Of a stretch of DNA of 59,287 nucleotides, positions 2 to 19,829 are shown piece by piece. The DNA comes from an uncultured Pelagibacteraceae bacterium (GTDB lineage: Bacteria > Pseudomonadota > Alphaproteobacteria > Pelagibacterales > Pelagibacteraceae). The stretch's first letter is position 1, and every line of letters starts with the position of its first letter. Position numbers and translations under genes: made by a program. The DNA lies in contig CACJMW010000005.1 of the NCBI GenBank assembly GCA_902594655.1, forward strand, positions 1-59,287. The letters are read 5' to 3'. Under the pieces are notes generated by a model that worked only from the letters and a program-made list of their open reading frames with translations, did no database searches and had not been told where the DNA came from.

Positions 2-1279
2 AAAACTGCTTTTGAAAGTTGGAAAAAAACATCAAAAGAAGAAAGACTAAAACTATTAGAAAAGCTATTAGAGGTTTATAAAAAAAGATTTAATGAAATG
101 GCAAAAGCTATTTCGGATGAAATGGGTGCACCAATGGATTGGGCTACAGAGGTGCAAACAGGATCAGGCCAAGCTCATTTAGAGGATTTCATTTTAAGAT
201 TAAAAGAATTTAATTTCGATGAACATTTTGACTCTAAATCAAGTAATCATATTTGTTATGAACCAATAGGTGTTTGTGGATTAATCACGCCATGGAACTG
301 GCCTATTAATCAAATTGCATTAAAGGTTGTTCCTGCACTTGCAACTGGATGTACAATGATTTTAAAACCTTCAGAAATTGCTCCTATATCAGGAATGCTG
401 TTTGCTGAAATGATCGATGAAGCTGGCTTTCCTGCGGGTGTTTTTAATTTAATTAACGGAGATGGTGCTGGAGTTGGCACTCATATTTCAGGTCATCCTA
501 ATATTGATATGGTTTCATTTACAGGATCAACTAGAGCAGGAAAATTAATTTCTAAAAATGCCGCCGAAACAATTAAAAGAGTTTGCTTAGAGCTTGGAGG
601 AAAAGGTGGAAATATAGTTTTTGCAGACTCTTATCCAAACGCTGTAAGAGATGGAATTAGAAATGTGATGAGCAATTCTGGTCAATCATGCGATGCACCA
701 ACTAGAATGCTTGTTGAGAAATCAATTTATCAAAGAGCTGTAGATGAAGCAGTGGATGAAGCAAATAAAATTAAAGTAGATGTAGGTTCAAAGAAAGGTG
801 ATCACATAGGTCCGGTTATTTCAAAAACTCAATACGATAAAATAATTAATTTAATTGAAAGCGGTATATCAGAAGGAGCAACTTTAGCAGCAGGAGGACC
901 TGATAGACCAAATGGGTTAAATAAAGGATATTTCATTAAACCAACAATCTTTACTGATGTTACAAATGATATGAGAATTGCAAAAGAAGAAATCTTTGGG
1001 CCTGTCTTATCAATTATTCCTTTCGAAAAAGAGGAGGAAGCAATTAAAATTGTTAATGACACTTCATATGGTTTAGGAAATTATCTACAAACAGAAAATA
1101 AAGAGAAAGCTCATAGGGTTGCAAAAGAACTTAGATCAGGTTGCGTTTATATTAATGGAAAAGGAGCTGATCCAGGAACGCCATTTGGTGGGTATAGACA
1201 ATCAGGTAACGGACGTGAAGGTGGAGTTTGGGGTTTAGAAGAATATTTAGAAGTAAAAACAGTAACAGGCTGGAAATAA
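2..1279 (+). CDS. NAD(P)-dependent aldehyde dehydrogenase (5' end outside window)
   Basis: The reading frame is open from base 2, so the N-terminus lies upstream of the window; the first in-window ATG (98) is internal to the ALDH fold. Visible family marks are the PWNWP segment of the cofactor domain, KPSE, FTGSTRAGK, the general-base motif LELGGKGG, the nucleophile in GQSCDAP and the EEIFGPVLS motif. ALDHs oxidise aldehydes to acids. In this neighbourhood (choline dehydrogenase at 9888, gamma-butyrobetaine hydroxylase-like gene at 1922) betaine aldehyde or 4-trimethylaminobutyraldehyde are the most plausible substrates, but the sequence alone does not decide. The next gene starts 15 bp downstream on the same strand. 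Confidence 0.85.
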   Translation, partial: KTAFESWKKTSKEERLKLLEKLLEVYKKRFNEMAKAISDEMGAPMDWATEVQTGSGQAHLEDFILRLKEFNFDEHFDSKSSNHICYEPIGVCGLITPWNWPINQIALKVVPALATGCTMILKPSEIAPISGMLFAEMIDEAGFPAGVFNLINGDGAGVGTHISGHPNIDMVSFTGSTRAGKLISKNAAETIKRVCLELGGKGGNIVFADSYPNAVRDGIRNVMSNSGQSCDAPTRMLVEKSIYQRAVDEAVDEANKIKVDVGSKKGDHIGPVISKTQYDKIINLIESGISEGATLAAGGPDRPNGLNKGYFIKPTIFTDVTNDMRIAKEEIFGPVLSIIPFEKEEEAIKIVNDTSYGLGNYLQTENKEKAHRVAKELRSGCVYINGKGADPGTPFGGYRQSGNGREGGVWGLEEYLEVKTVTGWK

Positions 1280-1294
1280 CCTTATTAAATCATA

Positions 1295-1927
1295 ATGCAT
1301 TTAATACATAGAGGTATTGTAAACAAAAATTATAAAGAAAACTTACTAAATTCATTTAAAACTTCATTTAAAAAAGGCTACGGAATTGAAACAGATATTC
1401 ATGCCACAAAAGATGGTGAGTTTGTTTGTTTTCATGACTTTACTTTAAAAAGAATTCATAAAATCAACAAAAGTATAAAAAACTTAAATTATACCGAAAT
1501 ACTCAACTTAACTAAAAAAAATCCAATACCACTACTAAAAGATTTATTGAAACTTTCAAAAAATAAATTTGATTTATTTATAGAAATTAAACCACTTTTC
1601 TCAAATAAACTATTAAGAAAATTATTATATGAGACTAAAAAATATAAGAAATGTGTATTTATTTCTTTTAAAGAAAAAAATATTTATAGGATAATAAAAA
1701 TAAAAAGAAAAACAAAAGTTGGACTTTCATATTCTCCATCAACTAGTATTAAAATAATAACAAAAAAATCTAAAAATAAAGATGTCAATTGTTTAATTTT
1801 AGATAAGTATTTTCTAAAGAGTTGTGAAATAAATAAAATTAAAAAAGAAAAATATTTTTATACAATTAAAAATAAAAAGGATTTTAAGAAATATTCAAAC
1901 AGTAATCTTATTTTTGAAAATTTATAA
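1295..1927 (+). CDS. Glycerophosphodiester phosphodiesterase (GDPD family)
   Basis: A short (210 aa) single-domain GDPD protein. It begins with the family's HRG motif (MHLIHRG), followed by GIETDIHATKDG with the metal-binding Glu and Asp, and FHDFTLKR with the second catalytic His. The C-terminal half is very lysine-rich and AT-biased. The family hydrolyses glycerophosphodiesters to glycerol-3-phosphate plus an alcohol; glycerophosphocholine would release choline and so feed the betaine genes around it, and the glycerol-3-phosphate could meet glpK/gpsA-type enzymes at 48-51 kb. There is no signal peptide, so it is probably cytoplasmic. Its stop overlaps the convergent oxygenase gene by 6 bp. 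Confidence 0.8.
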   Translation: MHLIHRGIVNKNYKENLLNSFKTSFKKGYGIETDIHATKDGEFVCFHDFTLKRIHKINKSIKNLNYTEILNLTKKNPIPLLKDLLKLSKNKFDLFIEIKPLFSNKLLRKLLYETKKYKKCVFISFKEKNIYRIIKIKRKTKVGLSYSPSTSIKIITKKSKNKDVNCLILDKYFLKSCEINKIKKEKYFYTIKNKKDFKKYSNSNLIFENL

Positions 1928-3058
1928 ATTTTTCAAATAATTAAGTCTTCCGATAATTTCATCTCTATCCATATAATAGCCCTGTAAATGTCTATTACCT
2001 GAATTTGGATCAAATTCTGTTCTGCCGTGAAGCAATCTTCTGTTATTAAAGCAAAAAATATCACCTGGCTCTAGTCTAAAATTAATTTGAAATTTACTGT
2101 CGTGTAATAAATTTCCAAATCTGTGGTGTGCTTTATATACTTTTTCCATTATATCTGGGTGACAATCAAGAGTATCTAGTGTTGCAATACTGTATCTAAT
2201 ATCATTATAATCTCCATCCTTTGTTAAAGATATTGCTGTACCATAAACGCTTCTTATCGCCTCTTGGGTATAATCTTTATCTCTAAATTTAAGAGGTACA
2301 TTAACAAGTATATCAAAAATTTCTTTTTCATTTTTTCTCAAATAATCTGCTACCGCAAATGCATCTACAGCTGAAGAGTCTCCTCCTTTAGCAGAATTAA
2401 CTAAACAATGTAAAAACTGATATCCTGGAGGATTTTCAAACCAAGGTAAATCCATATGATTTCTTAATGCGTGAGCTGTATATGCTGAATTATTTGGTTT
2501 TGGAATATTAATTACTTCAAATGGTGTTTTAAAAAAAGTTTCTCTAGTATGGCTTATTTTATTTAAAACAGGTAAAGCAGACTTTTCGTCTGTTGGAGCG
2601 TTTTTAATTATTGCTATTCCCTTATGATGCAAAAGTTCTAACCATTTAATTAAACCATCATTAGTTTCCATTATTTCATTATGATTTATAATTATTGTCT
2701 CTAAATTTTTTTCAAGTGAGCAATCCCATAAATCATATGGAGAAACATATTTCTTGTTATTCTTTATTGTATAACAGTTTTCTCTTAACCAATTAGGATC
2801 ATAGTAACTTGTATGATTGCCCTCACTCCACTCTACTTCCAATTTTCCATCTTTGTTTATATTTAAATTTTTTGCACTTAATTTTTCAGAGACATTTAAA
2901 ATGCTAAACATTCTATGTCTTGAGTCTGGATCGTGAGCTGTTGGACAATTATCTCTTAACCACATATAATTAAATTGACTTTTAATTCCATCATTCCATT
3001 CAACTTCTAAAGAAGTTCCATTCTTTGATACATTCTTAATATAAAAATTTTCACTCAT
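1922..3058 (-). CDS. Gamma-butyrobetaine hydroxylase-type Fe(II)/2OG oxygenase (BBOX or TmpA-like)
   Basis: 378 aa with the two-part layout of gamma-butyrobetaine hydroxylases: an N-terminal DUF971-like domain (WLRDNCP at about 33-39) and a C-terminal TauD-type double-stranded helix with His201-x-Asp203 and distal His344 in RRLLHGRTEF. The family hydroxylates gamma-butyrobetaine to L-carnitine. TmpA, which hydroxylates 2-(trimethylammonio)ethylphosphonate, is a known look-alike. Only the first N-terminal zinc cysteine (Cys38) is obvious; the following CxxC-type cysteines of animal BBOX are replaced by TAHDPD. L-carnitine dehydrogenase (16026), BKACE (7121) and thioesterase (8058) genes favour the carnitine role. 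The HD oxygenase gene at 9355 keeps TmpA possible. Confidence 0.75.
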   Translation of the reverse strand: MSENFYIKNVSKNGTSLEVEWNDGIKSQFNYMWLRDNCPTAHDPDSRHRMFSILNVSEKLSAKNLNINKDGKLEVEWSEGNHTSYYDPNWLRENCYTIKNNKKYVSPYDLWDCSLEKNLETIIINHNEIMETNDGLIKWLELLHHKGIAIIKNAPTDEKSALPVLNKISHTRETFFKTPFEVINIPKPNNSAYTAHALRNHMDLPWFENPPGYQFLHCLVNSAKGGDSSAVDAFAVADYLRKNEKEIFDILVNVPLKFRDKDYTQEAIRSVYGTAISLTKDGDYNDIRYSIATLDTLDCHPDIMEKVYKAHHRFGNLLHDSKFQINFRLEPGDIFCFNNRRLLHGRTEFDPNSGNRHLQGYYMDRDEIIGRLNYLKNL

Positions 3059-3132: not shown

Positions 3133-3161
3133 TTGAACTTTTTTATAAATCAATGTCTAAT
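3133..3161 (+). promoter_or_regulatory. Predicted sigma-70 promoter of the first OpuA-like operon
   Basis: TTGAAC (3133-3138), a 17-bp spacer and TCTAAT (3156-3161) form a near-consensus promoter. Transcription would start near 3168, about 30 bases before the ATG at 3198. A start at 3153 would fall inside the promoter, which supports the later start codon. Confidence 0.5.
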
Positions 3162-3197
3162 GCTCTTTGTTATATAACTTTTATATGGAGGGAACAT

Positions 3198-4217
3198 ATG
3201 AGAAATCTTAAGAATATTCTCCTAACAACTGTTTTAGCATCTATGCTTGCGGTGTTTACTACATCTGCAAACGCAAAATGCAAAGCTAGATTGGGAGACT
3301 TTGATTGGTCTAGTGCTAACATTCATACAGCAATAACTACATTTATTCTTGAAAAAGGATATGGATGTGAAGTTTCTGTTACAAAAGGAAGTACTACTCC
3401 AATAATGGCCGCTCATTATGACGGTCAATTAGATGTTATTACTGAAGTTTGGTATGACAATATTATTGGTAATTATAAGCCTCACGAAGAAGCAGGTACA
3501 ATTATCCATATGGGTACAAATACACCAGACTCTCAGCAAGCATTCTACGTAGATAAAGCTACTGCTGATAAATACAATTTAAAGTCTGTTGAAGATATGA
3601 AAGATCCAAAAATAGCTGCGCTATTTAAAGATCCGGAAGATCCTTCAAAAGGAAGAATGACTAGCTGTATATCTGGTTGGACTTGCTACACTGTTAACTT
3701 GGTAAAACAAAAAGAGTATGGTCTAGATAAATACTATACTAACTTTGACCCAGGTTCAGGTGGTGCATTAGATGCTGCGATAGCAGGTGCATTTGCAAAG
3801 AAAAAACCAATCTTTACATACTACTGGGCACCAACTGGTTTAATGGGTAAAGTTGATCTAGTAAGATTAACAGAGCCTAAATTTAATCAAAAATGTTGGG
3901 ATGATATGTCTGTGGTTGTTGAAGACATAAAAGCTAATGGTCCAGACGCTTACAAACCTTCTTGTGCATGTGAATATAGAGATATGGCTTTAACTAAGTC
4001 TGTTCTTGCAACATGGGCAAAATCTCATCCAAAAGAAAATGAGTTCATTGGAAAATATACAATACCAACAGCTGTTGTGAACAAAATGTTGGCATTTTAT
4101 GAAGATGAGTCAGGTGGTGATATGGAAGCTACTGCAATAGAGTTCTTAAAATCGGAAACTATGTGGAAAGACTGGGTACCAGCTGATGTTGCTAAGAAAG
4201 TTTCTGCAGCATTATAA
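3198..4217 (+). CDS. Periplasmic substrate-binding protein of OpuA/ProU-type ABC transporter (betaine/carnitine/choline class)
   Basis: Start chosen at 3198 because a GGAGGGA ribosome site lies just upstream and the product then opens with a clean signal peptide (MRNLKNILLT... ending SANA-KC); 45 upstream bases are also open but fall in the promoter. The mature protein (about 310 aa) is an OpuAC-fold binding protein, with the typical start KARLGDFDWSSANIHTA and aromatic-rich segments (WYDN, WTCY, YYWAP) of the kind that cage quaternary ammonium groups. It delivers ligand to the permease and ATPase encoded next. A hairpin terminator separates it from the permease gene, consistent with over-expression of the binding protein. 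The exact ligand cannot be read from sequence. Confidence 0.88.
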   Translation: MRNLKNILLTTVLASMLAVFTTSANAKCKARLGDFDWSSANIHTAITTFILEKGYGCEVSVTKGSTTPIMAAHYDGQLDVITEVWYDNIIGNYKPHEEAGTIIHMGTNTPDSQQAFYVDKATADKYNLKSVEDMKDPKIAALFKDPEDPSKGRMTSCISGWTCYTVNLVKQKEYGLDKYYTNFDPGSGGALDAAIAGAFAKKKPIFTYYWAPTGLMGKVDLVRLTEPKFNQKCWDDMSVVVEDIKANGPDAYKPSCACEYRDMALTKSVLATWAKSHPKENEFIGKYTIPTAVVNKMLAFYEDESGGDMEATAIEFLKSETMWKDWVPADVAKKVSAAL

Positions 4218-4237
4218 TCACTAAATAAAATATAATG

Positions 4238-4259
4238 AGAGAGCCCTTCGGGGCTCTTT
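4238..4259 (+). terminator. Stem-loop between binding-protein and permease genes (partial terminator)
   Basis: A GC-rich stem, AGAGCCC-TTCG-GGGCTCT (core 4240-4257, extendable by two G-T/A-T pairs), with a UUCG tetraloop is followed by TTTCTTT. It sits in the 61-bp gap inside the transporter operon and probably reduces readthrough or stabilises the upstream transcript. Confidence 0.75.
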
Positions 4260-4278
4260 CTTTAATTAAAACCGACAT

Positions 4279-5310
4279 ATGGAAGTACTAAAGAAAAATA
4301 AAAAAATAATTTTTAACGTTGGATTGTTATTTGTTTTCGTATGGTTATTAATAACTAGTTACAGTCAATCAAAAAGAAAACCTGAAAATATTAGTGAATT
4401 ATTAAATGATTTTTCTTGGCTTGGAGGTAAGTGGCCTAAGTGGTTAGATTTACCATTAATGAATTGGATTAATGTTGGTTTTAAAGCACTAAATGAAAAA
4501 TATGGTTATATATTTGAAGCTATAAACAATGTTCTTTTATATATGTTGATGCTTGTAAAGAATTTTTTAATTCAAGCGCCGTGGCCATTGGTAATACTTG
4601 GTGTAGTTGTTTTAACTTATTTTGCGAGCGGGAGAAAAATTGGAACAACTGTATTTGTTGGTTTCTGTACATTTTTTATAGGTTTTCTTCACCCAATATT
4701 TTGGCAAAAAGCAATTGAAACAACTGCAATAATGTTAATTGGAATTTTTCTTTGTGTTATTGCTGGAATTCCATTGGGGATAGCTATGGCAAGAAGTGCG
4801 AGAACAAGAAATGTAATTTTACCTGTTTTAGATTTAATGCAAACAATTCCAAGTTTTTGCTACTTAATTCCAGGTATAATGTTATTTGGACTAGGGGCTG
4901 TGCCAGCTATTATTGCAACTTTTATTTATGCTGTCCCACCTCTTGTAAGACTTACAGATTTAGGAATAAGGTTAGTTGATAAAGAAGTCATAGAAGCAGC
5001 TGATGCGTTTGGTGCTAGCAAGAAACAAAAATTATTAGGCGTTCAATTACCTTTAGCTTTACCAAATATTATGCAAGGCATTAACCAATGTACTATGATG
5101 GCTTTAGCGATGGTAGTAATTGCATCCATGATAGGAACAAGAGGTTTGGGTGATGAGGTATTGTTAGGCTTACAACAATTAAATGTAGGTAGAGCTGCAG
5201 AAGCTGGTATTGCAATAGTTCTATTAGCTATTGTTTTAGATAGAATAACTCAATCTTATGGAGAAACTTTACAAGAGAGGACTACACCTGCTAAAAAGGA
5301 GAAAAAATAA
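4279..5310 (+). CDS. OpuA/ProU-type ABC transporter permease
   Basis: 343-aa membrane protein of the ProW/OpuAB class. It has an N-terminal hydrophobic helix (about 10-28), a cytoplasmic/periplasmic stretch, then several membrane segments. The BPD_transp_1 core contains the conserved TIPSFCYLIPG and the EAADAFGASKKQKLLGVQLPLA coupling region that docks on the ATPase, followed by ASMIGTRGLG. It forms the channel for the binding protein encoded upstream; its TAATG end overlaps the ATPase gene start by one base, so the two are translationally coupled. Confidence 0.88.
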   Translation: MEVLKKNKKIIFNVGLLFVFVWLLITSYSQSKRKPENISELLNDFSWLGGKWPKWLDLPLMNWINVGFKALNEKYGYIFEAINNVLLYMLMLVKNFLIQAPWPLVILGVVVLTYFASGRKIGTTVFVGFCTFFIGFLHPIFWQKAIETTAIMLIGIFLCVIAGIPLGIAMARSARTRNVILPVLDLMQTIPSFCYLIPGIMLFGLGAVPAIIATFIYAVPPLVRLTDLGIRLVDKEVIEAADAFGASKKQKLLGVQLPLALPNIMQGINQCTMMALAMVVIASMIGTRGLGDEVLLGLQQLNVGRAAEAGIAIVLLAIVLDRITQSYGETLQERTTPAKKEKK

Positions 5311-6335
5311 TGTCTAAGATAGAAATAAATAACGTTTACAAAATTTTTGGAAATAATCCTAATTCCATTTTACCAATGGTAAAGGATGGAGCAACTAAAG
5401 AACAAGTTCTTGAAGAAACTGGTCATACTGTAGGTTTAGATAATGTTTCTCTAAAAATTGAAGAAGGAGAAACATTTGTATGTATGGGACTATCAGGTTC
5501 AGGAAAATCAACATTAATTAGACATTTGAATAGATTGATTGATCCAACTGATGGGGAAATTTTAATTGAAGGCACAAATGTAATGAGTTTGAACACTGAA
5601 AGTCTTATCGATTTTAGAAGACATAAAATGAGCATGGTCTTTCAAAGATTTGGTTTGTTTCCTCACAAGACTGTTTTGCAAAATGTAGGTTATGGTCTTG
5701 AAATGCAAGGAATTGATGAAAATAAAAGAAATAGTGTAGCGATGGATAAAATCCAAGCTGTTGGATTAAACGGATTTGAAAATCAATTTCCTGCACAATT
5801 ATCTGGAGGTATGCAACAAAGAGTTGGTCTTGCTAGAGCATTAGCTACCGATACTGATATTATGTTAATGGATGAAGCATTTTCAGCATTAGACCCATTA
5901 ATAAGAAGTGACATGCAGAAACAGCTTTTAGATTTACAAGCAGAATTAAAGAAAACTATAGTATTTATTACTCACGATTTGGATGAATCATTGAGACTGG
6001 GAGACCACATAGGGATTTTAAATGCTGGAAAATTAGTTCAAGTTGGAACTCCTGTTGAAATTATAATGAATCCTGCTGATGACTATGTAGAGGCGTTTGT
6101 TAAAGATGTTAACAGAGCGAAAGTAATTAAAGCAAAAATTATTATGATACCTGCCGCACAAGCGAATGGCATAGATAAATCAAATTTAATTAAAGTCAAT
6201 GAGGATCAATTTATTGAAGAATTTTTACCTCAAGTAGTTTGTAATAATGCAAATTGTGAAGTAGTTGATAGACAAGGTAACACAAAAGGGTACATAACTA
6301 ATAAGGAATTACAAAAATCTTTATCAAAGTCATAA
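5310..6335 (+). CDS. OpuA/ProU-type ABC transporter ATP-binding protein
   Basis: 341 aa. The ProV family N-terminal extension (VYKIFG) is followed by Walker A GLSGSGKST (about 59-67), a Q-loop, the signature LSGGMQQR, Walker B IMLMDEAFSALDP and the switch His in ITHDLDE. A C-terminal region of about 90 aa resembles a reduced CBS-type regulatory domain. It powers uptake by the permease it overlaps. It could also serve the binding-protein/permease pair at 25.8-27.8 kb, which has no ATPase gene of its own (inference). Confidence 0.9.
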   Translation: MSKIEINNVYKIFGNNPNSILPMVKDGATKEQVLEETGHTVGLDNVSLKIEEGETFVCMGLSGSGKSTLIRHLNRLIDPTDGEILIEGTNVMSLNTESLIDFRRHKMSMVFQRFGLFPHKTVLQNVGYGLEMQGIDENKRNSVAMDKIQAVGLNGFENQFPAQLSGGMQQRVGLARALATDTDIMLMDEAFSALDPLIRSDMQKQLLDLQAELKKTIVFITHDLDESLRLGDHIGILNAGKLVQVGTPVEIIMNPADDYVEAFVKDVNRAKVIKAKIIMIPAAQANGIDKSNLIKVNEDQFIEEFLPQVVCNNANCEVVDRQGNTKGYITNKELQKSLSKS

Positions 6336-6338
6336 TTA

Positions 6339-7124
6339 ATGACTACTCAATCATTGAAAAATAAAAAAATAGTTATATCTGCTGGTGCATCTGGCATTGG
6401 ACTTGCAACAACAAAGATCTGTTTACAGAGAGGTGCTACAGTTTTTGTTTCTGATATCAATGAAAAATTTATAATTAAATTAAGAAAAAAATTTAAAAAC
6501 AAAAAACTTTTTATTTATCATTGTGATGCCTCAAATGAGAACGATGTAAATAACTTATTCGATAAAATTAAAAAAAAAACTAATAAAATTGATGCTTTAA
6601 TAAATAACGTAGGAATAGCAGGTCCCACTGGAACTATAGAAAAACTAAGCTCTTTCGATTGGGAAAATACTTTAAAAGTAAATATTATCAGCCATTTTTA
6701 TTTTACAAAAAATGCAATTCCACTTCTTAAAAAAAATAAAGGTGGAGCTATAATTAATCTTTCATCTGGCGCTGGTATAATGGGATTCCCATTAAGATCT
6801 CCATACGCTGCAAGTAAATGGGCAATTGTTGGTGTTACAAAAACTCTAGCTATGGAGCTTGGTAAGTTTAAAATTAGAGTTAATGCAATTTGTCCTGGTA
6901 CAATTAAAGGTGATCGAATGGTTAGAGTAATTAGAGATAAAGCAAAATTTTTAAAAACTTCAAAAAAATCAGTTGAAAAAGAATTTATTTCCATGGCATC
7001 CATGAACAGTTGGATTTATGAGGACGACATTGGAAAAATGTGTAGCTTTTTAATCTCTAAGGACTCTGAAAGAATTTCAGGACAAGTTATTGGTGTTGAC
7101 GGTAATGCTATAAGGTTAGACTAA
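6339..7124 (+). CDS. Short-chain dehydrogenase/reductase (SDR)
   Basis: 261 aa classical SDR. A Rossmann motif close to GxxxGxG (SAGASGIGLA), NNVGIAG, the catalytic Ser in NLSSGAG and the YAASK active-site motif are all present, as is the C-terminal SGQVIGVDGN segment. It starts 3 bp after the transporter ATPase gene, so it is probably co-transcribed and acts on the imported compound or a derivative, oxidising or reducing an alcohol/ketone with NAD(P). A role in carnitine or 3-hydroxybutyrate metabolism would fit the neighbours but is unproven. The stop overlaps the convergent BKACE gene by 4 bp. Confidence 0.82.
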   Translation: MTTQSLKNKKIVISAGASGIGLATTKICLQRGATVFVSDINEKFIIKLRKKFKNKKLFIYHCDASNENDVNNLFDKIKKKTNKIDALINNVGIAGPTGTIEKLSSFDWENTLKVNIISHFYFTKNAIPLLKKNKGGAIINLSSGAGIMGFPLRSPYAASKWAIVGVTKTLAMELGKFKIRVNAICPGTIKGDRMVRVIRDKAKFLKTSKKSVEKEFISMASMNSWIYEDDIGKMCSFLISKDSERISGQVIGVDGNAIRLD

Positions 7125-8008
7125 TAATGTTTGGTAAGATTTAATTTTTCTCTAGTTTCAGCTGGTGTCATTATAGAAATTCCAAGATCGCTTACAATTC
7201 TAATTGCTTTCTCTACTAGTTGTGCATTCGTTGCTAATTTTCCTTTTTCTAAATATAAATTATCCTCAAGTCCTACTCTTGGATTTCCTCCCATAATTGC
7301 TGTTTGTGCAACAAATGGCATTTCATTTCTAGAAATTGCAAATCCAGACCATACAGCATTTTCTGGCATTATGTCTTTCATTGCTTGCATTGCTAAAGGT
7401 GTTGCAGGGGCACCCCAAGGGATACCTAAGCACATTTGAAACATTGGTGGATCATCTAGTAAACCTTCTTTATATAATTGTGCCCCGAACCACATATTAC
7501 CTAAATCGAAAGCTTCTATTTCAGGTTTAACTTTAATTTCTTTTAATCTTTTTGCAGCTTTTCTTAAATCATTTGGAGTGTTAACTGTAATAACTGAACT
7601 ATCACCGAAGTTTAGAGTTCCACAATCAAGAGTGCAAATCTCTGGTAAAAATTGTTCAGCATTAGCTATTCTCTCCATAACGTTTGCCATGTCTGTCATT
7701 GGTCCAAAATCTAAAGGGTTTTTTCCTTGTCCAATATCTAAATCACCACCCATCCCTGTAGTTAAATTTAAAACTACATCAGTACCGCTTGAACGTATTC
7801 TATCAACCACTTCTTTGTATAATTCAAGGCGTCTGCTTGGAGTTCCATCGTCTTCTCTTACATGAATATGTGCAATTGCTGCGCCGGCTTTTGCAGCCTC
7901 AATAGCAGCAGTTGCAATTTGTTCAGGAGTTTTTGGTAAATCTGGATGTTTAGATGCAGTATCCCCAGATCCTGTTACTGCGCATGATATAAATACTTTA
8001 TTGTTCAT
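7121..8008 (-). CDS. Beta-keto acid cleavage enzyme (BKACE, DUF849), probable dehydrocarnitine cleavage
   Basis: 295 aa, full length for BKACE. The metal-binding HIHVRE motif lies near residue 48, NLTTGMGG follows, and the LGNMWFG and LGIPWGAPATP segments line the (beta/alpha)8 barrel site. BKACEs condense a beta-keto acid with acetyl-CoA and cleave it; the carnitine branch turns 3-dehydrocarnitine plus acetyl-CoA into betainyl-CoA plus acetoacetate. The adjacent thioesterase gene (divergent, 49 bp away) and the L-carnitine dehydrogenase at 16026 support that branch over the lysine-fermentation one. Substrate is inferred from context. Confidence 0.82.
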   Translation of the reverse strand: MNNKVFISCAVTGSGDTASKHPDLPKTPEQIATAAIEAAKAGAAIAHIHVREDDGTPSRRLELYKEVVDRIRSSGTDVVLNLTTGMGGDLDIGQGKNPLDFGPMTDMANVMERIANAEQFLPEICTLDCGTLNFGDSSVITVNTPNDLRKAAKRLKEIKVKPEIEAFDLGNMWFGAQLYKEGLLDDPPMFQMCLGIPWGAPATPLAMQAMKDIMPENAVWSGFAISRNEMPFVAQTAIMGGNPRVGLEDNLYLEKGKLATNAQLVEKAIRIVSDLGISIMTPAETREKLNLTKHY

Positions 8009-8057
8009 TTTAATTATTAGATTTATACTATTAAATTAAGTCTTGGGAAATAAAAAT

Positions 8058-8525
8058 ATGTCAGTGCATGTTACAAATGTAAAAATTAAATCTGAGTGGA
8101 CAGATTACAACAAACATCTCAACATGGCCTATTATGTTTTAGTATTTGATCAAGCTTGGGAAATTTTACTTGAAAAATTTGGCATGGGTGAAACTTCAGC
8201 AAAAACTACTGGAATGAGCACTATGGTTGTTGAAACAAATACAACATACGACAATGAAGTTGAAGAAGGTAAAGAGGTTGAAATAATTTTAACTTATTTT
8301 GATCACGATAAAAAACGATTACATTACAAGTTGGAAATGATCGAGAAAGAAACAAATAAACTTTCTTCAACAATTGAAATGTTATCTTTACATGTTGATT
8401 TAAGCAAAAGAAAGGTAGCTGAATTTGATGAAGAAAGAACCAAACTTATGGATACTTTTATTAGTGAAAATAAACAAAAATTTAAAAGTGATAATTTAAA
8501 ATTCACAGGTAAACTAAAAAAATAA
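8058..8525 (+). CDS. Hotdog-fold acyl-CoA thioesterase, probable betainyl-CoA thioesterase
   Basis: 155 aa 4HBT-type hotdog protein; the family signature is in DYNKHLNMAYYVLVFDQA near the N-terminus, with the Asp/Asn active-site region. ATG at 8058 is preferred over a TTG at 8043 because it is preceded by GGGA and gives the usual N-terminus. In carnitine degradation, a thioesterase releases glycine betaine from betainyl-CoA, the BKACE product; the BKACE gene lies divergently next door. A four-gene plus-strand series (this gene, TauD, HD oxygenase, GMC oxidase) begins here with gaps of 1 bp or overlaps. Confidence 0.75.
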   Translation: MSVHVTNVKIKSEWTDYNKHLNMAYYVLVFDQAWEILLEKFGMGETSAKTTGMSTMVVETNTTYDNEVEEGKEVEIILTYFDHDKKRLHYKLEMIEKETNKLSSTIEMLSLHVDLSKRKVAEFDEERTKLMDTFISENKQKFKSDNLKFTGKLKK

Positions 8526-8526
8526 T

Positions 8527-9354
8527 ATGGAAGTAAATTTATTATCTGGTGCATTAGGGGCTGAAGTAAAAGGGATCAGTTTAAAAGACTCCTCTGAAAA
8601 AAACTGGCAGTTAATTAATAATTTAATGCTTGAACACAAAGCTCTATTTTTTAGAGACCAAGATATCACTTGTGAAGAGCAAATTAATTTAGCAAAAAAA
8701 TTTGGTCCACTTGAAAGACATGTATATGTTAAAGGTTTAAAAGACCATCCGGAAATTCTAAGAATTGTGAAGGGAGCTGAGGAAAAACATCAATGGGGCG
8801 AAACATGGCATACTGATGTAAGCTACAATCCAAAACCAACTAAAGTTATTATTTTAAGATCTAGAAAAATTCCTCCTGTTGGTGGAGATACTATGTTTTC
8901 AAATATGGAAATTGCATATGAAACTCTTGATAACGAAATTAAAAAGAAAATCGAAGGAAAGAAAGCAATTCATAGCTCATTAGGCGCTGCAGCTTTTGTA
9001 GATAAATATACAGAGATGGAAGGTAATGGAAATTTAGATGAATACTCAAATGAGCATCCGATGGTAAGAATTCACCCTGAAACAAAGAAAAAAATTCTTT
9101 ATGTAAACTCAATGTATACAAAAAAAATAATAGGTATGGATAAAAAAGAGAGCGATGAAATATTAAAAAATATTTTTGAGCATCAAGAAAGATTAGATTT
9201 TACATGTAGATTTAAATGGACAGAAAATGCTGTTGCTATTTGGGATAACAGAAATACCCAACATCAAGGTCTTACAGATTTTTTTCCTGGCAGAGGCCTT
9301 GGTCATGAAAGAATAATGGATCGAATTGCAATTGAAGGAGATCATCCACATTAA
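8527..9354 (+). CDS. TauD/TfdA-family Fe(II)/2OG dioxygenase
   Basis: 275 aa, single TauD domain. It shows His95-x-Asp97 (ETWHTDVSY), distal His246 (RNTQHQGLTD) and Arg262/Arg266 for 2-oxoglutarate. It lacks the N-terminal extension of gamma-butyrobetaine hydroxylases. It begins 1 bp after the thioesterase gene and its stop is directly followed by the ATG of the PhnZ-like HD oxygenase. That arrangement mirrors the known two-step phosphonate systems (PhnY-PhnZ, TmpA-TmpB), in which a 2OG enzyme hydroxylates C1 before HD-oxygenase cleavage. Taurine or another sulfonate/ammonium substrate is equally possible on sequence alone. Confidence 0.85.
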   Translation: MEVNLLSGALGAEVKGISLKDSSEKNWQLINNLMLEHKALFFRDQDITCEEQINLAKKFGPLERHVYVKGLKDHPEILRIVKGAEEKHQWGETWHTDVSYNPKPTKVIILRSRKIPPVGGDTMFSNMEIAYETLDNEIKKKIEGKKAIHSSLGAAAFVDKYTEMEGNGNLDEYSNEHPMVRIHPETKKKILYVNSMYTKKIIGMDKKESDEILKNIFEHQERLDFTCRFKWTENAVAIWDNRNTQHQGLTDFFPGRGLGHERIMDRIAIEGDHPH

Positions 9355-9891
9355 ATGGATATTATTGAGAAAATAATTAGCAACTTTAAAAATAATAAAT
9401 CACTTTATATTGGAGAAAGCGTAACAATTGCTGAACACATGATTCAGTCAGCAATGATGGCTGAAAAATCAAAAAGCAAAGATAATTTGGTGTGCTCATG
9501 TTTATTACACGATTATGGTCATTTCATATTAGATGATCCTGATGAATTGGTTAGAAATAATCAAGATGGTAAACACGAAGATATTGGTTATGAGTATTTA
9601 AAAAGATTTTTTAAGAAAGAGGTAGTTGAACCTATTAAACATCACGTTTTAGCTAAAAGATATCTTGCAAGGGATAAAAAATATTACAATCGATTATCTG
9701 AAGCATCTGTAGTAAGTCTCAAGCTCCAAGGAGGTCTCTTAAATAGCAAAGAAGCAAAGGTATTTGAAAAAGAAGAGTTCTTCAAAGATGCAATAAAACT
9801 CAGAAAGTTTGATGAAGCTGCAAAGAAAATAGGCATCAAAATAAAAGATATCATTCATTACAAAGATTTATTAAAAGCATCTCTAAAATGA
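9355..9891 (+). CDS. HD-domain mixed-valent diiron oxygenase (PhnZ/TmpB-like)
   Basis: 178 aa. The predicted diiron ligands are His28, His52-Asp53 (LLHDYGHF), His74 (GKHEDIG), His97 (KHHVLAK) and Asp153 (LRKFDEAAK). Their spacing, and that of Tyr18-x-x-Glu21, His56 and Lys101, follows the pattern I recall for PhnZ (Y24, E27, H34, H58, D59, H62, H80, H104, K108, D161) with an offset of 6-8. The SLKLQGG segment near 121-127 also matches. PhnZ and TmpB oxidatively cleave the C-P bond of a 1-hydroxyphosphonate, releasing phosphate and glycine or glycine betaine. Given the betaine setting, a TmpB-like role yielding betaine is attractive. The stop overlaps the GMC gene by 4 bp. Confidence 0.8.
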   Translation: MDIIEKIISNFKNNKSLYIGESVTIAEHMIQSAMMAEKSKSKDNLVCSCLLHDYGHFILDDPDELVRNNQDGKHEDIGYEYLKRFFKKEVVEPIKHHVLAKRYLARDKKYYNRLSEASVVSLKLQGGLLNSKEAKVFEKEEFFKDAIKLRKFDEAAKKIGIKIKDIIHYKDLLKASLK

Positions 9892-11468
9892 ATTATGATT
9901 ATTTAATAATTGGTGCAGGTTCAGCAGGATGCGTGCTTGCAAATAGACTAACAGAAAATGGTCAAAATAATGTAGCTATTTTTGAAGCTGGTAAGCCTAG
10001 TGATATTTGGAAAGTTAAAATGCCCCTTGCAATTTTATATACAATGCATGATCCTAAGTATAATTACAAATATTACTCAGAACCAGAGCCTCATTTACAT
10101 AATAGAAGATTATTTTGTCCAAGAGGTAAAATGATTGGCGGATGTTCTGCTCATAATGGAATGGTATTTGTAAGAGGAAATCCAAACGATTATGCGAGAT
10201 GGGCATCTTTTGGATTAGAAAATTGGTCTTATGAAAAAGTCCTTCCTTATTTTAAAAAAATTGAAACATGGTCTGAAGGAGAAAATGACTATAGAGGTGG
10301 AAGTGGTATATTGCCAGTAAACCAATCTAAAAATAAAAATCCCTTATTTAAAGCATTTGTCGAGTCAGCTGGTGAAGCTGGTTATAAAATAAATGATGAT
10401 ATGAATGGTAAAGAACAAGAAGGTTTTGGAATGTACGATGTCACTATTCATAAAGGCGAAAGAGCAAGTGTTTCTAAATATTATTTAAATCCTGCAAAAA
10501 AAAGAAAAAACCTTAAGGTATTTACAGAGTCTTTTGTAGAAAAAATTATTTTTGATGGGAAGAAAGCTATTGGTATTGAGGTCAAAATTAAAAATAAAGT
10601 TGAAAAAATATATGCAAATAAAGAAGTAATTTTAAGTGGTGGTGCTATAAACTCTCCTCAATTGCTTATGCTGTCTGGCATTGGTCCAAGTCAACACCTA
10701 AAAGACAAAGGAATTAATGTAGTTCACAATTTAGAGGGGGTTGGAAAAAATCTACAAGATCACTTAGAAACATACGTTCAACAGGAGTGTAAAACAAAAG
10801 ATACTTTATATTCTTATGTTAATAAAATTAATATGATTAGAATAGGTATTCAATGGTTTCTAAATAGAAGTGGTCCTTGCTCAACCTCTTTTTTGGAAGC
10901 AGGTGGCTTTTGTAAATCATCTTCTGAAAGAGAGTACCCAAATATTCAATTTCATTTTTTTCCTGCTTTTGTAATTGACCACGGATTAGTTGATCCAGAT
11001 AGACATGGTTATCAATTACATGCGAGTCCAAATCATCCAAAAAGTAGGGGCCATGTAACTCTAAATAGTTCTAATCCTTATGATTATCCAAAAATTCAAT
11101 TTAATTATCTTGAGCATGAAGATGATTTAAATCAAACAATAGAAAGTATTCATGTAGCAAGAAATATTTTGGGACAAAACTCTTTAAAACCATTTGCAGG
11201 AAAAGAGATTGGACCAGGAGAACATGCTCAAACTCAAGAAGTATTTGAAGAATACATTCGTTCAAAAGCTGAGACTGCTTATCACCCATCCTGTACTTTA
11301 AAAATGGGGGTAGATAATATGGCTGTGGTTGACCAAAAACTAAAAGTTCATGGTGTAGAAAATTTAAGAGTAGTTGATGCTTCTGTTATGCCTGAAATTA
11401 CAAGCGGAAATCTTAACGCTCCAACACTAATGATTGCTGAAAGAGCATCAGAATTTATTTTAAACTAA
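9888..11468 (+). CDS. betA: GMC-family FAD oxidoreductase, choline dehydrogenase-like
   Basis: 526 aa, usual length for BetA (about 550). It has an N-terminal FAD motif YLIIGAGSAGCVLANRL, GMC signature 1 (RGKMIGGCSAHNGM), signature 2 (GGAINSPQLLMLSGIGP) and the catalytic His region ETAYHPSCTLKMG. It ends with the BetA-like SGNLNAPTLMIAERA. Choline dehydrogenase oxidises choline to betaine aldehyde, which an aldehyde dehydrogenase such as the one at the window start could finish to betaine. Other GMC alcohol oxidations (for example PEG-type alcohols) cannot be excluded. It is translationally coupled (ATGA overlap) to the HD oxygenase gene. Confidence 0.78.
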   Translation: MNYDYLIIGAGSAGCVLANRLTENGQNNVAIFEAGKPSDIWKVKMPLAILYTMHDPKYNYKYYSEPEPHLHNRRLFCPRGKMIGGCSAHNGMVFVRGNPNDYARWASFGLENWSYEKVLPYFKKIETWSEGENDYRGGSGILPVNQSKNKNPLFKAFVESAGEAGYKINDDMNGKEQEGFGMYDVTIHKGERASVSKYYLNPAKKRKNLKVFTESFVEKIIFDGKKAIGIEVKIKNKVEKIYANKEVILSGGAINSPQLLMLSGIGPSQHLKDKGINVVHNLEGVGKNLQDHLETYVQQECKTKDTLYSYVNKINMIRIGIQWFLNRSGPCSTSFLEAGGFCKSSSEREYPNIQFHFFPAFVIDHGLVDPDRHGYQLHASPNHPKSRGHVTLNSSNPYDYPKIQFNYLEHEDDLNQTIESIHVARNILGQNSLKPFAGKEIGPGEHAQTQEVFEEYIRSKAETAYHPSCTLKMGVDNMAVVDQKLKVHGVENLRVVDASVMPEITSGNLNAPTLMIAERASEFILN

Positions 11469-16025: not shown

Positions 16026-16964
16026 CTACCTCCTTATCTTTACTTCATATTTTTTTCTCATCTTTTGTAAGTTAAGCAAATACTCATCTCTAATTTTTGC
16101 AATTGTTGCAACAGATTTTCCTTTAGCTTGCTTTCTTGTGCCAGATATTACTCTGTTTGATAATTTTTTTGAAAGTTTTGGTGCTTTTAGTTTAGTCCAC
16201 GGAAGTTTTAAAGCAGGGCCAAATTGTTTTAGCATATGCTTCATCCCAGCATTTCCGCCAGCTAAATGAAATGTAAGAAAAGTGCCCATCAATGACCATC
16301 TCATTCCTGGTCCGTCTTCAATGGCTCTATCTAGATCTTTAGTTGAGGCATATCCTTCATTAACAATATGAAGCGCTTCTCTCCATAGCGCCTCTTGCAG
16401 TCTATCTGATAAAAAACCTGGTAATTCCTTTTTCAACATTATTGGATTCATAGATATAGACTCATAAAATTTCTTAGCCCTATTAAGAGTCTTATTGCTT
16501 GTTTTTTTTCCTGGAACAATTTCAACACCAGGCAACATGTAAACTGGATTAAAGGGGTGAGCAATTATTGCTCTGGATGGAATTTTACATTTTGAATAAA
16601 TCTTTGATGGCAATAGCCCCGAAGAGCTCGATGAAATAATTGCATTAGATTTAGAATATTTGCCAATTACCTCCATTAGTTTAGTTTTTAATTTATAATT
16701 TTCTGGAGCGCACTCTTGAATAAAATCTGCATTTTTTAATGCATCTTTTATATCTGTAACATAACTAAAATTCGTTAAATTTAGTTTATTTTTATTAAAT
16801 AACTTTTTTACAAATGGCCATGCTCTTTTAACTTCTAAAATAACTTTTTTCTTTAATTTTGGGTCTGTATCATAAACAATTACTTTTTTATTATGTGCAA
16901 GAAATCTTACAACCCATCCTGATCCTATTACTCCAGCGCCGATTACAGCAATTTTGTTTATCAT
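16026..16964 (-). CDS. lcdH: L-carnitine dehydrogenase (3-hydroxyacyl-CoA dehydrogenase fold)
   Basis: 312 aa, the typical length of bacterial L-carnitine 3-dehydrogenase. It begins with an NAD site IAVIGAGVIGSGWVVRFLAH and carries the conserved block PGFLSDRLQEALWREALH, then DGPGMRWSLMGTF, FHLAGGNAGMKH and FGPALKLPWTKL, all of which I associate with LcdH rather than with 3-hydroxybutyryl-CoA dehydrogenase. It would oxidise L-carnitine to 3-dehydrocarnitine, the substrate of the BKACE enzyme at 7121. It sits 1 bp downstream of the 2OG oxygenase gene in the long minus-strand run. Confidence 0.85.
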   Translation of the reverse strand: MINKIAVIGAGVIGSGWVVRFLAHNKKVIVYDTDPKLKKKVILEVKRAWPFVKKLFNKNKLNLTNFSYVTDIKDALKNADFIQECAPENYKLKTKLMEVIGKYSKSNAIISSSSSGLLPSKIYSKCKIPSRAIIAHPFNPVYMLPGVEIVPGKKTSNKTLNRAKKFYESISMNPIMLKKELPGFLSDRLQEALWREALHIVNEGYASTKDLDRAIEDGPGMRWSLMGTFLTFHLAGGNAGMKHMLKQFGPALKLPWTKLKAPKLSKKLSNRVISGTRKQAKGKSVATIAKIRDEYLLNLQKMRKKYEVKIRR

Positions 16965-17816
16965 TTAATCAGCTAATCCATCTGATCTAGCTATATTTCT
17001 TTCAATATGTATTGGTAAAACTTTTCCATATATAGCCTTTGAGTGTTCAGGAGTATTTACTCTCCACGGATCTAATACATAAGCAGGTATACACATGTAT
17101 CTTGATTTCTTACCCTCAACTTTTGTTACCCTATGCAATGTAAATCTTCCTTTAAATATCTGAAGATCGCCTGGTTCCAATTTTAATTGTTTTACTCTTG
17201 ATCTGTCACCATCTAAAACTTTTTTAACTTCATCGAAGTTTTCATTTCCTGGGCCACGAATGTTTGGACAATATTCAAATATTCCACCTTTTTCAGGCTT
17301 CTGTATCATTAAACTCAAAGTAAATTCACAACTATCAAAATGCCAAGGAAGTATTCCATCTGGCTTCATTACATTATAAGCATGACATGCTAAAGGATCG
17401 GCCCATCTATAAATTGGTGATACACCAAGACATGCAGATACAAATTTTAACAATTCATCTGTCTCATACAAATATTTCATTTCCGAGTTTTTTGAAAAAC
17501 AATCAGAATTTAAATATCCATTATATCTATCCATAAAAATTCTTTTTGGATGATCCTTGGGTAAAGTTATGTCATCTTTTGCATATAAATAAGCATTTAT
17601 ATTTTCTTTTGACATATAAACTTCATTTAATTGTTTTTCTAATTCTGAATTCATTATTTCTAATGATTTTGACAAAATAAAATTAGGTATTGTTGAACAA
17701 CTAGTCTCATCTAACTCTTTTTTACATTTTTTAATAAGACTTTTAGTTTTTGAGGAATTTAAATTATGAATTGGATATTTTTCTAAATTAACTATAGATT
17801 TAAGTCTTTCGTTCAC
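16965..17816 (-). CDS. Phytanoyl-CoA-dioxygenase-like Fe(II)/2OG oxygenase
   Basis: 283 aa. His159-x-Asp161 (LPWHFDSCEF), distal His228 (RFTLHRVTKV) and Arg239 (KKSRYMCIPAY) give a complete 2OG-oxygenase site; the surrounding PGDLQIFKGR is typical of PhyH-like enzymes. It overlaps the nucleotidyltransferase gene by 4 bp, and that one overlaps the kinase gene by 4 bp, so the three form a tight unit inside the betaine/carnitine operon. No characterised homolog comes to mind. A role in modifying or activating a small hydroxylated molecule is inference. Confidence 0.78.
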   Translation of the reverse strand: MNERLKSIVNLEKYPIHNLNSSKTKSLIKKCKKELDETSCSTIPNFILSKSLEIMNSELEKQLNEVYMSKENINAYLYAKDDITLPKDHPKRIFMDRYNGYLNSDCFSKNSEMKYLYETDELLKFVSACLGVSPIYRWADPLACHAYNVMKPDGILPWHFDSCEFTLSLMIQKPEKGGIFEYCPNIRGPGNENFDEVKKVLDGDRSRVKQLKLEPGDLQIFKGRFTLHRVTKVEGKKSRYMCIPAYVLDPWRVNTPEHSKAIYGKVLPIHIERNIARSDGLAD

Positions 17817-18187: not shown

Positions 18188-18594
18188 TTAATTATCTCCT
18201 TATATATTTTTTGTGCCCAGTTCTTTGCATCAAATGTATCTATTTTAATATTAAAATTTTCTGGTTTGACAAACATTTGGTTTGTGTCATCAAATCTTCC
18301 TTTTTCAATAGTATCCATCCAAATTGTAAAATCTGCTCCAAACAATTTTCGTGCTTCTTTAGTTGGACAAACAAAATCTGCTACGACATAATTTCCTTCA
18401 TCTCTAAGTTTTTTTGCTAAATCTCTCATTCTATTGGCTTGTCTTACTCTTCCTTCTGCTGAAAAATCCCAGTCATTATGCTCTGTTCTGACTTTATCAG
18501 CATTTAGCCACTTTGCATCGAGTAAAGGTACTAACTCCTTCGCCAGTGTAGTTTTACCTGATCCAGGTAATCCCATTATTAAAACAACTTTCAT
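18184..18594 (-). CDS. APS-kinase-like P-loop kinase
   Basis: 136 aa P-loop protein: Walker A GLPGSGKTT (about 8-16), then LDAKWLNADKVRTEHNDWDF, reminiscent of the adenylylsulfate kinase LDGDxxR region, and VVADFVCPTKEARKLF resembling the APS kinase FISPxxxxR segment. It is shorter than full APS kinases (about 190-200 aa), so it is probably a relative that phosphorylates another small molecule or nucleotide-linked group. Gene overlaps on both sides (4 bp with the nucleotidyltransferase, 1 bp with the DddP-like gene) indicate joint expression. Confidence 0.75.
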   Translation of the reverse strand: MKVVLIMGLPGSGKTTLAKELVPLLDAKWLNADKVRTEHNDWDFSAEGRVRQANRMRDLAKKLRDEGNYVVADFVCPTKEARKLFGADFTIWMDTIEKGRFDDTNQMFVKPENFNIKIDTFDAKNWAQKIYKEIIK

Positions 18595-19829
18595 TAAATA
18601 TTTTCTAAAGGATGATGAGACATTAGCTCTAATCCATTTTCTCCTATTAAATATTGTTGTTCTAGTTTTACTCCCTCTTTACCACCTACTTTTCCAATAT
18701 AACTTTCAACTGTGATAGTCATATTTTTTTGAAAAATTCCACCTCTCTCTCCTCCGTCAGTTGGGTATCTTATAGCGGGCCACTCATCACACAAACCTAT
18801 ACCATGAACCATAACTGAATATCTATTTGGATAGTAATCTTCAGGTAATATCCAGGATTTCTCAGTAAATTCTAAAAATGAAACACCATCTTTAATTAAT
18901 CTGGAATTATGATTTATTTGTTCTGCTGCCATTGAATATAATTTCTTTTGTTCATCATTGAACTTGTGGCCCACTACAAAAGTTCTAGAAATATCCGCAC
19001 AATATCCATAAGGTCCCACCATATCTGTATCAAAAGCTACAATTTCGCCAGTTTGCATAATCTTATTAGTGCTTTCTTGCATCCATGGATTTGTTCTTTC
19101 TCCAGAAGAAAGTATTCTGCACTCAATCCATTCTCCACCATTTTCTATATTTGTTTTATGCAATATTGACCAAAGCTCATCCTCCGTCATTCCAGGCTTT
19201 AATTCTTCTCTCATTTTAGCTACACCAATTTCAGCAACATCTATTGCAGATTTCATACATTTTAACTCATCTGGTGATTTAATTACTCTTGCTTGTTCTA
19301 AAATTAATTTTGCATCTACAACTTTTATTCCCTCGTTATTAAGTTCTCCAACCGCTGGTCCATTTAAAACGTCAATAGCAACCTTTTTGCTTTTAAAATA
19401 TTTATTCGAAAGTTCTTTGATCTCATTTATCCATTTTTTTAATTGTATATCAGATTGATTACCGTTGCTAAAATAGTCCCAGGTTATTGCTGGTCTTATT
19501 TCATCAATCAAATTTAAGTGTTTGGATAAAATTTCACAATTAAAGTATTCATATAGAATAGTTGGCCCATCCACAGGAATAAAACAATATCTTGTAAGAT
19601 TATGCATGTTGTAAACGCTCATGTTTACAGTATCTAATGCATATCTAACATTTACAGGATCAAATAGAATACAGGCTTCTAAATTATTTTTTTGTAATTC
19701 CTTTTTAACTCTATCCAATCTATAAGATCTTAACCTCTCAAAATTAATTTCATCTTCTCTTAATCTTTTTTTTGTAATAAATTTATGATTTGCTTGTGTT
19801 TCTGGGGCTATTTTTCTATTAAATCTCAT
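18594..19829 (-). CDS. dddP: M24-family DddP-like DMSP lyase
   Basis: 411 aa with a creatinase-like N-domain and pita-bread C-domain. Segments GGEWIECRILSSGERTNPW, AFDTDMVG..CADISRTF and HGIGLCDEWP are close to those I recall in DddP. Predicted metal ligands are Asp269, Asp279, His342, Glu375 and Glu390, and Asp348 occupies the place of the DddP catalytic aspartate six residues after the ligand His. DddP cleaves DMSP to DMS and acrylate. Placement in a betaine/carnitine operon leaves open a related substrate, so the specific call is moderate; membership of the M24 family is firm. Confidence 0.7.
   Translation of the reverse strand: MRFNRKIAPETQANHKFITKKRLREDEINFERLRSYRLDRVKKELQKNNLEACILFDPVNVRYALDTVNMSVYNMHNLTRYCFIPVDGPTILYEYFNCEILSKHLNLIDEIRPAITWDYFSNGNQSDIQLKKWINEIKELSNKYFKSKKVAIDVLNGPAVGELNNEGIKVVDAKLILEQARVIKSPDELKCMKSAIDVAEIGVAKMREELKPGMTEDELWSILHKTNIENGGEWIECRILSSGERTNPWMQESTNKIMQTGEIVAFDTDMVGPYGYCADISRTFVVGHKFNDEQKKLYSMAAEQINHNSRLIKDGVSFLEFTEKSWILPEDYYPNRYSVMVHGIGLCDEWPAIRYPTDGGERGGIFQKNMTITVESYIGKVGGKEGVKLEQQYLIGENGLELMSHHPLENI

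Follow-up and report, generated by a model that had tools for sequence, protein, structure and literature searches.

A TauD-type oxygenase gene adjoining a PhnZ/TmpB-like HD oxygenase gene in Pelagibacteraceae: a candidate phosphonate-to-betaine module

The closest described relatives of the locus presented here are two-gene oxidative pathways that cleave the carbon-phosphorus (C-P) bond of phosphonates. PhnY-PhnZ, in which PhnY is PhyH-type, yields glycine and phosphate from 2-aminoethylphosphonate (AEP), TmpA-TmpB of Leisingera caerulea yields glycine betaine and phosphate from 2-(trimethylammonio)ethylphosphonate (TMAEP), and GmPhnY-GmPhnZ1 yields formate and phosphate from methylphosphonate. 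We analysed a stretch of 59,287 nucleotides from an uncultured Pelagibacteraceae bacterium of the SAR11 group (contig CACJMW010000005.1, assembly GCA_902594655.1), henceforth the window, which is one whole contig of a genome that is 71% complete. It carries, side by side, genes for a TauD-type Fe(II)/2-oxoglutarate (2OG) oxygenase (henceforth TauD) and for an HD-domain protein of the PhnZ/TmpB kind (henceforth HD), followed by a choline-dehydrogenase-like GMC oxidoreductase (henceforth GMC). Our best explanation, to which we give a probability of roughly 0.4, is that TauD and HD form a two-step oxidative C-P cleavage module feeding the betaine island around them. This would be a variant of the known oxidative pathway with a different first enzyme and an unexpected modularity.

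The assignment of HD to the C-P-cleaving oxygenases PhnZ and TmpB is well supported by sequence, residues and predicted fold. Its scores were 170 bits for NCBIfam Phn-HD (TIGR03276; E 3.6e-50, cut-off 214.6), 162.5 bits for TmpB (NF049941; equivalog cut-off 300) and 131 bits for the hydroxymethylphosphonate PhnZ1 model (cut-off 300); being below the Phn-HD cut-off, it is treated here as a divergent relative and not called a member of TIGR03276. A sequence search of the PDB returned TmpB (E 5.8e-35) and PhnZ (E 1.4e-28), the remaining matches (E 0.2) being unrelated. The PhnZ-like residues named in the first-pass annotation, which was made from the window alone, are all at the positions given there (Y18xxE21, H28, H52-D53, H56, H74, H97, K101 and D153), and none of them varies when HD is aligned with TmpB, PhnZ and six SAR11 relatives. 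In the available text of two reviews that cover PhnZ (PMC7916636, PMC8177086), the counterparts are iron ligands (H34, H58, H80, H104, D59 and D161), members of a mobile loop (Y24 and E27) and a residue associated with the hydroxyl (H62). Across 118 rows of the SAR11 clade the metal ligands, Y18, E21, H56, K101 and R150 are conserved, bar gaps or X in three. The AlphaFold model of HD (predicted local distance difference test, pLDDT, 90.8) matched TmpB with Z 25.2 over 168 residues and PhnZ with Z 24.6 over 171 residues (root mean square deviation 1.9), against Z 11.2 and 10.3 for myo-inositol oxygenase (MIOX) and at most 9.4 for all other rows.

This far closer fold, together with the motif, ruled out the assignment of HD as a phosphohydrolase or MIOX, and neither clustering with those enzymes nor loss of ligands among relatives was found, so that its placement in the PhnZ/TmpB kind at first pass holds. 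Given the YxxE loop, the H...HD...H...H...D set and a fold much nearer to TmpB and PhnZ than to any listed hydrolase, it is very improbable that HD is a phosphohydrolase or another enzyme without action on C-P bonds that sits in the island incidentally. HD is, with high probability on these grounds, an alpha-hydroxyphosphonate oxygenase. It resembles PhnZ in kind, ligands, loop and fold, and TmpB in kind and fold. GmPhnZ1 is of the same kind, but the score is lower, and that system differs also in its first enzyme and in lacking the betaine setting, its own being C1 metabolism.

The product of the first gene is a plain TauD and not of PhyH or GBBH (gamma-butyrobetaine hydroxylase) type, as first annotated: PF02668 (193.9 bits) is its sole Pfam domain at E 0.01, and the Pfam scan gave no PhyH domain and no GBBH N-domain (PF06155). 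The pair differs in this from PhnY-PhnZ, and likewise from TmpA-TmpB, since the first enzyme here is a 275-aa protein of the taurine dioxygenase type without GBBH N-domain (and HD, as said, falls below the TmpB cut-off). The best NCBIfam match was taurine dioxygenase (NF007104, 211 bits, below the equivalog cut-off of 313), and identity to E. coli TauD was 31% over nearly the whole length. BLAST detected no similarity to TmpA above chance, and the TmpA model NF049936 was not among the matches at E 0.01. As GBBH-type proteins also match the broad Pfam TauD family (the window's protein at 1922-3058 scores 130 bits there), the novelty lies in which TauD branch is used.

Aligned with E. coli TauD, the Fe ligands (H95, D97 and H246), the 2OG residues (T122 and R262) and the acid-side H65 and R266 (H70 and R270 in E. 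coli) are all kept. At the positions of the E. coli residues Y73 and N95, which we take to be on the amine side, each of the five SAR11 rows has V68 and G91, and the replacements are invariant in 27 aligned TauD rows. A substrate with a changed amine end would predict this. The residues suit an acid whose amine end is different, for instance a phosphonate or a sulfonate, and make no choice between the two. Beyond these replacements and the score below the taurine dioxygenase cut-off, the E. coli enzyme differs in context, the operon here being with HD and GMC and not with tauABC. The predicted structure of TauD was poor (pLDDT 64) and was not used. Of 141 other genomes of the class, 34 gave a match at E <=1e-50, all at no more than 44% identity and none ortholog-like; 272 plasmid records were all below 60%, the best among the matches listed being 38%. 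At one SAR11 locus (L092:8000-8827) a TauD ortholog (79%) adjoins a glycosyltransferase-like gene, named from its translation, with neither GMC nor HD.

In the pathway that we propose, TauD, using Fe(II), 2OG and O2, would hydroxylate a quaternary-ammonium ethylphosphonate at C1, the most likely such substrate being TMAEP, and so fill the role that the PhyH-type PhnY or the GBBH-type TmpA has elsewhere. The mixed-valent diiron site of HD, for which the enzyme class is well supported and the substrate a prediction, would then cleave the (R)-1-hydroxyphosphonate, releasing phosphate as well as glycine betaine, and the latter would join the pool made from choline and carnitine via neighbouring genes. 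Two-gene oxidative logic and betaine setting would be shared with TmpA-TmpB. That TauD is the usual hydroxylase of HD is a view towards which we lean slightly.

As reported at first pass, the TAA of TauD (9352-9354) directly abuts the ATG of HD (9355). The accompanying description of the genes as fused in register did not survive: a stop codon intervenes, and spacing among relatives varies from -1 to 9 bases over the 74 distinct same-strand pairs measured (start codons assigned mechanically), with exact abutment in only 6 of them, which rules out a gene fusion. The tightest link is that of HD to GMC, tighter than that of TauD to HD, the HD stop and GMC start overlapping by 4 bases in 91 of 91 measured cases (99 distinct HD sequences in all). 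Ratios of dN/dS of 0.03-0.08 for HD and 0.03-0.14 for TauD (11 comparisons each, some with dS >1 and saturated) indicate strong constraint on the evolution of both proteins. At four loci (L052, L109, L111 and L113) HD is 93-96% identical to that of the window and GMC merely 74-75% (compared with 9888-11468), as if GMC had been exchanged by recombination just 3' of the HD overlap. In two others (L053:8882-9710 of genome G396 and L075:844-1670 of G073) TauD is broken into two frames next to an intact HD, which may reflect sequencing error or decay.

A pointer to the substrate came from a sister clade of HD present in five genomes of the family and 52-57% identical. In two of these genomes (G082 and G042) HD, at 57-58% identity, adjoins a gene that exceeds the equivalog cut-off of 400 for TmpA, with 542 and 532 bits, one of the two scoring 469 bits to the crystallised TmpA. 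Two others (G057 and G130) have TauD, followed by GMC, and no gene above the TmpA cut-off, and in the fifth (G006, 83% complete, with an internal stop in HD) neither TauD nor true TmpA was found. Among 72 genomes tested for TmpA (the complete set of 39 that carry this HD, plus 33 more), 6 had true TmpA, all of them within the 39, and 4 of the 6 also have TauD next to HD (one split, two cut by contig ends). At four of the true TmpA loci (L036, L258, L259 and L260) the gene adjoins relatives of the aldehyde dehydrogenase at the left end of the window, within the same betaine island. The true TmpA loci found in the family, in the betaine island, are L036:1965-3110, L037:3053-4186, L258, L259, L260 and L261. 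Around one HD, the hydroxylase would appear to be TmpA, TauD or both. TMAEP is the likeliest substrate, given that two sister-clade HDs of the same bacterial family have a true TmpA as neighbour in the betaine island; we regard these neighbours as a real pointer, from few and incomplete genomes, and put the chance of TMAEP over a less methylated homologue at even or a little better. Of the phosphonate-to-betaine pathway put forward at first pass, the betaine phosphonate has thereby gained ground, and the part of TauD as hydroxylase is one that we infer.

A quick tree of 91 HD proteins united the SAR11 proteins of this kind in one clade (39 rows, Shimodaira-Hasegawa-like approximate likelihood ratio, SH-aLRT, 99), separate from TmpB and the relatives of TmpB that adjoin TmpA, and next to the HD of locus L233, although the support for this last grouping (94 and 83) is not decisive. 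The L233 HD adjoins a PhnY-like protein (193 bits to a methylphosphonate hydroxylase model, cut-off 500) and PhnD-, PhnC- and PhnE-like genes; here and in all fetched loci the names PhnM, PhnCDE, PhnX, MFS and permease are readings of translations and not model matches. Trees constrained to unite the clade with TmpB (approximately unbiased test, p-AU 0.747) or with PhnZ (p-AU 0.864) outscored the free quick search, which had therefore missed better trees. For the placement among PhnZ, TmpB and MIOX suggested at first pass, this means that fold and sequence go with PhnZ/TmpB and not with MIOX, while the tree leaves joint clades with TmpB and with PhnZ both unrejected.

Alternatively, the substrate could be AEP, its mono- or dimethyl form or some other small phosphonate, and the pair would then release phosphate together with glycine, sarcosine or dimethylglycine, as PhnY-PhnZ does. 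HD is nearly equidistant from the Phn-HD and TmpB models, AEP is a chemical analogue of taurine, the L233 HD has the company just described, and dimethylglycine would enter the betaine island too. We nevertheless find a substrate of the AEP type quite unlikely, since there is no phosphonate transporter among the identified neighbours of the pair (a further difference from PhnY-PhnZ) and a betaine-type binding protein and betaine genes are there instead, sister HDs stand beside true TmpA, and the amine-side residues of TauD are changed.

We surveyed the co-occurrence of the two genes in 397 genomes of the family, most of them incomplete, with counts that ignore kinship, and in the best 80 of 430 HD relatives from named genomes, all titled Pelagibacteraceae, Pelagibacterales or Candidatus Pelagibacter; these 80 named loci partly overlap with the 48 loci from the family survey, and the two sets are not additive. 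This HD was found in 39 of the 397 genomes (its clade thus in 39 of the 48 that bear any HD) and TauD in 54. The conservation of the pair in SAR11 that had been proposed for survey is accordingly partial: 29 genomes have both, 25 TauD only, 10 HD only (2 of these with TauD ends at contig edges) and 333 neither. The named loci comprise 65 with TauD-HD-GMC, 2 with TauD-HD at a contig end, 12 with thioesterase-HD-GMC and 1 cut by the contig start. TauD stands immediately 5' of HD in 67 of the 80; of the 33 family loci with GMC after HD, 25 have TauD in that place. At locus L034 the distance from TauD to HD is 3.4 kb, with the two on opposite strands. One and the same site, bounded by GMC and by the genes upstream, holds TauD-HD-GMC, TauD-GMC or HD-GMC. 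The idea of a third pairing of hydroxylase and HD oxygenase stood in so far as TauD so often precedes HD; it fell short in that the pairing is not fixed and each gene occurs without the other. From these arrangements we read the locus as modular, with HD as the part that would add phosphonate use.

Several of our results weigh against TauD and HD as a joint C-P cleavage module. HD scores below the Phn-HD, TmpB and PhnZ1 cut-offs, and its clade is neither shown to be TmpB nor excluded as TmpB by the trees. Of the 28 fetched TauD loci that lack HD, 25 have GMC directly after TauD; of the 25 TauD-only genomes, 7 carry an HD of a second, distant class at another place and 18 have no HD that we could find, from which it follows that TauD has a use without HD. 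Conversely, 12 of the 80 named loci and 5 of the 48 family loci have HD and no TauD, and those five family genomes have no TauD ortholog, only a paralog of 31-33% identity, and no true TmpA. (The HDs of the five make up a single clade within those that have TauD alongside, which makes a loss of TauD probable.) On the TauD tree, adjacency to HD changes 7 times by parsimony, at least 4 of the changes being forced by supported branches, and both of the TauD active-site types seen occur with and without HD. Outside the Pelagibacteraceae, no TauD adjoins HD in the 70 loci examined. With TauD lacking HD, and HD lacking TauD, at one and the same site, we infer the part of TauD as hydroxylase of HD from frequent association and not from a fixed pairing.

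Some of the same facts favour a rival in which TauD and HD are independent and act as separate feeders of one betaine hub. TauD would then act on a quaternary-ammonium sulfonate or sulfate ester, trimethyltaurine or choline-O-sulfate, giving betaine aldehyde for GMC or the aldehyde dehydrogenase, and HD would cleave a hydroxyphosphonate made by another hydroxylase or imported ready-made. The loci with TauD-GMC or HD-GMC are as this predicts, TauD retains the H and R with which taurine dioxygenase binds the acid, and of the five family genomes with HD and no TauD three have a TmpA-like paralog (335-339 bits, cut-off 400) and all five a distant TauD paralog. The spacing of at most 9 bases in all 74 measured pairs and the strong co-occurrence speak for a joint function, however, and TmpA-like paralogs are common without HD too: TmpA or a TmpA-like protein is present in 33 of the 39 HD genomes and 21 of the 33 others (Fisher p 0.057). 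Taken together, we judge separate feeding somewhat unlikely, yet an alternative to be taken seriously. The TmpA-like paralog was considered as the partner of HD and kept inside this rival alone, given how common it is without HD and the changes at two TmpA positions, N187 and N287. In the alignment of the L038 paralog to TmpA, from which the placing was read, these are D and T, and R288 is kept; the three residues are taken from the available text of PMC9296572. Such a paralog is found in the window's own genome (G000:C6:31345-32409, L262; 345 bits, cut-off 400), a few genes from an ABC ATPase-like gene, and in many of the relatives tested.

Returning to the two-step module, a more speculative and rather unlikely extension is that a SAR11 hydroxylase of the taurine dioxygenase type took over the role of TmpA, acting alone on betaine sulfonates or sulfate esters and harvesting phosphorus wherever a plug-in HD was inserted. 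In the available text of PMC9381506, Pelagibacterales account for 45% of marine phnZ sequences, and phnZ is counted as AEP use yielding glycine; in that of PMC8316502, phnZ is divided into subclades, the AEP form being found at very few sites. Were TauD in the TmpA role with a plug-in HD, much of the SAR11 phnZ now counted as AEP use would be a betaine-phosphonate pathway. A betaine phosphonate as substrate could help to explain the disagreement between marine phnZ surveys, and the most abundant ocean bacteria would then link phosphorus, nitrogen and betaine supply. A 2023 review (PMC10574752), whose available text nowhere mentions TauD, gives four versions of the oxidative pathway (PhnYZ, GmPhnYZ, TmpAB and PhoF). 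Titles and abstract beginnings in the open literature yielded no report of TauD with a PhnZ-type HD, which may nonetheless be in print in subscription papers.

Coordinates, strands and model scores of the TauD-HD pair and of the surrounding betaine/carnitine genes in the window
Feature	Coordinates	Strand	Remarks
Aldehyde dehydrogenase, betaine-aldehyde-type, 5' end cut by contig	98..1279	+	BADH TIGR01804 368 bits (cut-off 669)
Gamma-butyrobetaine dioxygenase-like, GBBH N-domain PF06155	1922..3058	-	TIGR02409 319 bits (cut-off 414.75); TmpA model 269 (400)
Betaine-type ABC transporter (binding protein, permease, ATPase), possible uptake route	3153..6335	+	PF04069 OpuAC 162 bits
BKACE beta-keto acid cleavage enzyme, dehydrocarnitine cleavage suspected	7121..8008	-	PF05853 315 bits
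4HBT thioesterase, just upstream of TauD; carnitine/betainyl-CoA type suspected	8043..8525	+	PF13279 77.6 bits
TauD-type Fe(II)/2OG oxygenase, proposed C1 hydroxylase	8527..9354	+	275 aa; TAA 9352-9354
HD-domain mixed-valent diiron oxygenase, PhnZ/TmpB kind, proposed C-P cleaving enzyme	9355..9891	+	178 aa
GMC oxidoreductase, choline-dehydrogenase-like	9888..11468	+	NF002550 747 bits (cut-off 605); BetA 682 (below 732)
L-carnitine dehydrogenase-like	16026..16964	-	PRK07066 359 bits (cut-off 414)

The setting of the pair among betaine genes, noted at first pass, was confirmed by family models, most of the proteins of this betaine/carnitine island scoring below equivalog cut-offs. Besides the features in the table (where the binding protein of the transporter is named from PF04069 and the permease and ATPase from translations of open reading frames), the island includes a homocysteine methyltransferase-like protein, with the betaine-homocysteine type among its models, and several demethylase-like proteins. 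The thioesterase also matches the C-terminal part of carnitine 3-dehydrogenase (NF005716), at 63 bits, below cut-off. Judged by these similarities, the island genes point to quaternary amines ending in glycine betaine. An oxygenase-like protein at 16965-17816 was considered as a PhnY of the window and ruled out, as it matches Halogenase D and no PhyH model; its score is above the Halogenase D gathering score (44.5 against 26 bits), and it could be a halogenase or a hydroxylase.

The 70 loci outside the family came from 68 genomes: 40 of 87 genomes of the class, 23 loci from 28 genomes of the phylum (covered for 1.5 kb on each side) and 7 of the 20 genomes that represent a second family within the order. 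The pairing of TauD with HD was seen here in Pelagibacteraceae only, the nearest approach elsewhere being a TauD-like frame 4.3 kb from HD on the other strand (L249). TmpA adjoins HD in 28 of the 70 loci, one more having a TmpA fragment at the contig edge, and in 6 of the 40 class loci HD adjoins PhnM of the C-P lyase pathway. A scan of viral sequences with the HD alignment gave 22 pattern matches and no relative, and PADLOC found nothing. In the second family, one locus (L289:2735-11050) combines a 199-aa HD with a PhnX-like HAD protein, a phosphatase-like protein and PhnCDE-like genes.

The second, distant HD class of SAR11 (L041-L050, e.g. L043:9811-10362) is 40-44% identical and present in 10 of the 397 family genomes. 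Its neighbourhood includes a pair of permease-like genes and one MFS-like gene, and no 2OG oxygenase was seen adjoining it; one member of the class scores 201 bits to Phn-HD. Elsewhere in the window, the product of 18594-19829 is DddP-like (344 bits, below the dimethylsulfoniopropionate lyase cut-off of 600), and 56245-58581 encodes a 778-aa protein in which DUF1989 is joined to a GcvT-type domain pair.
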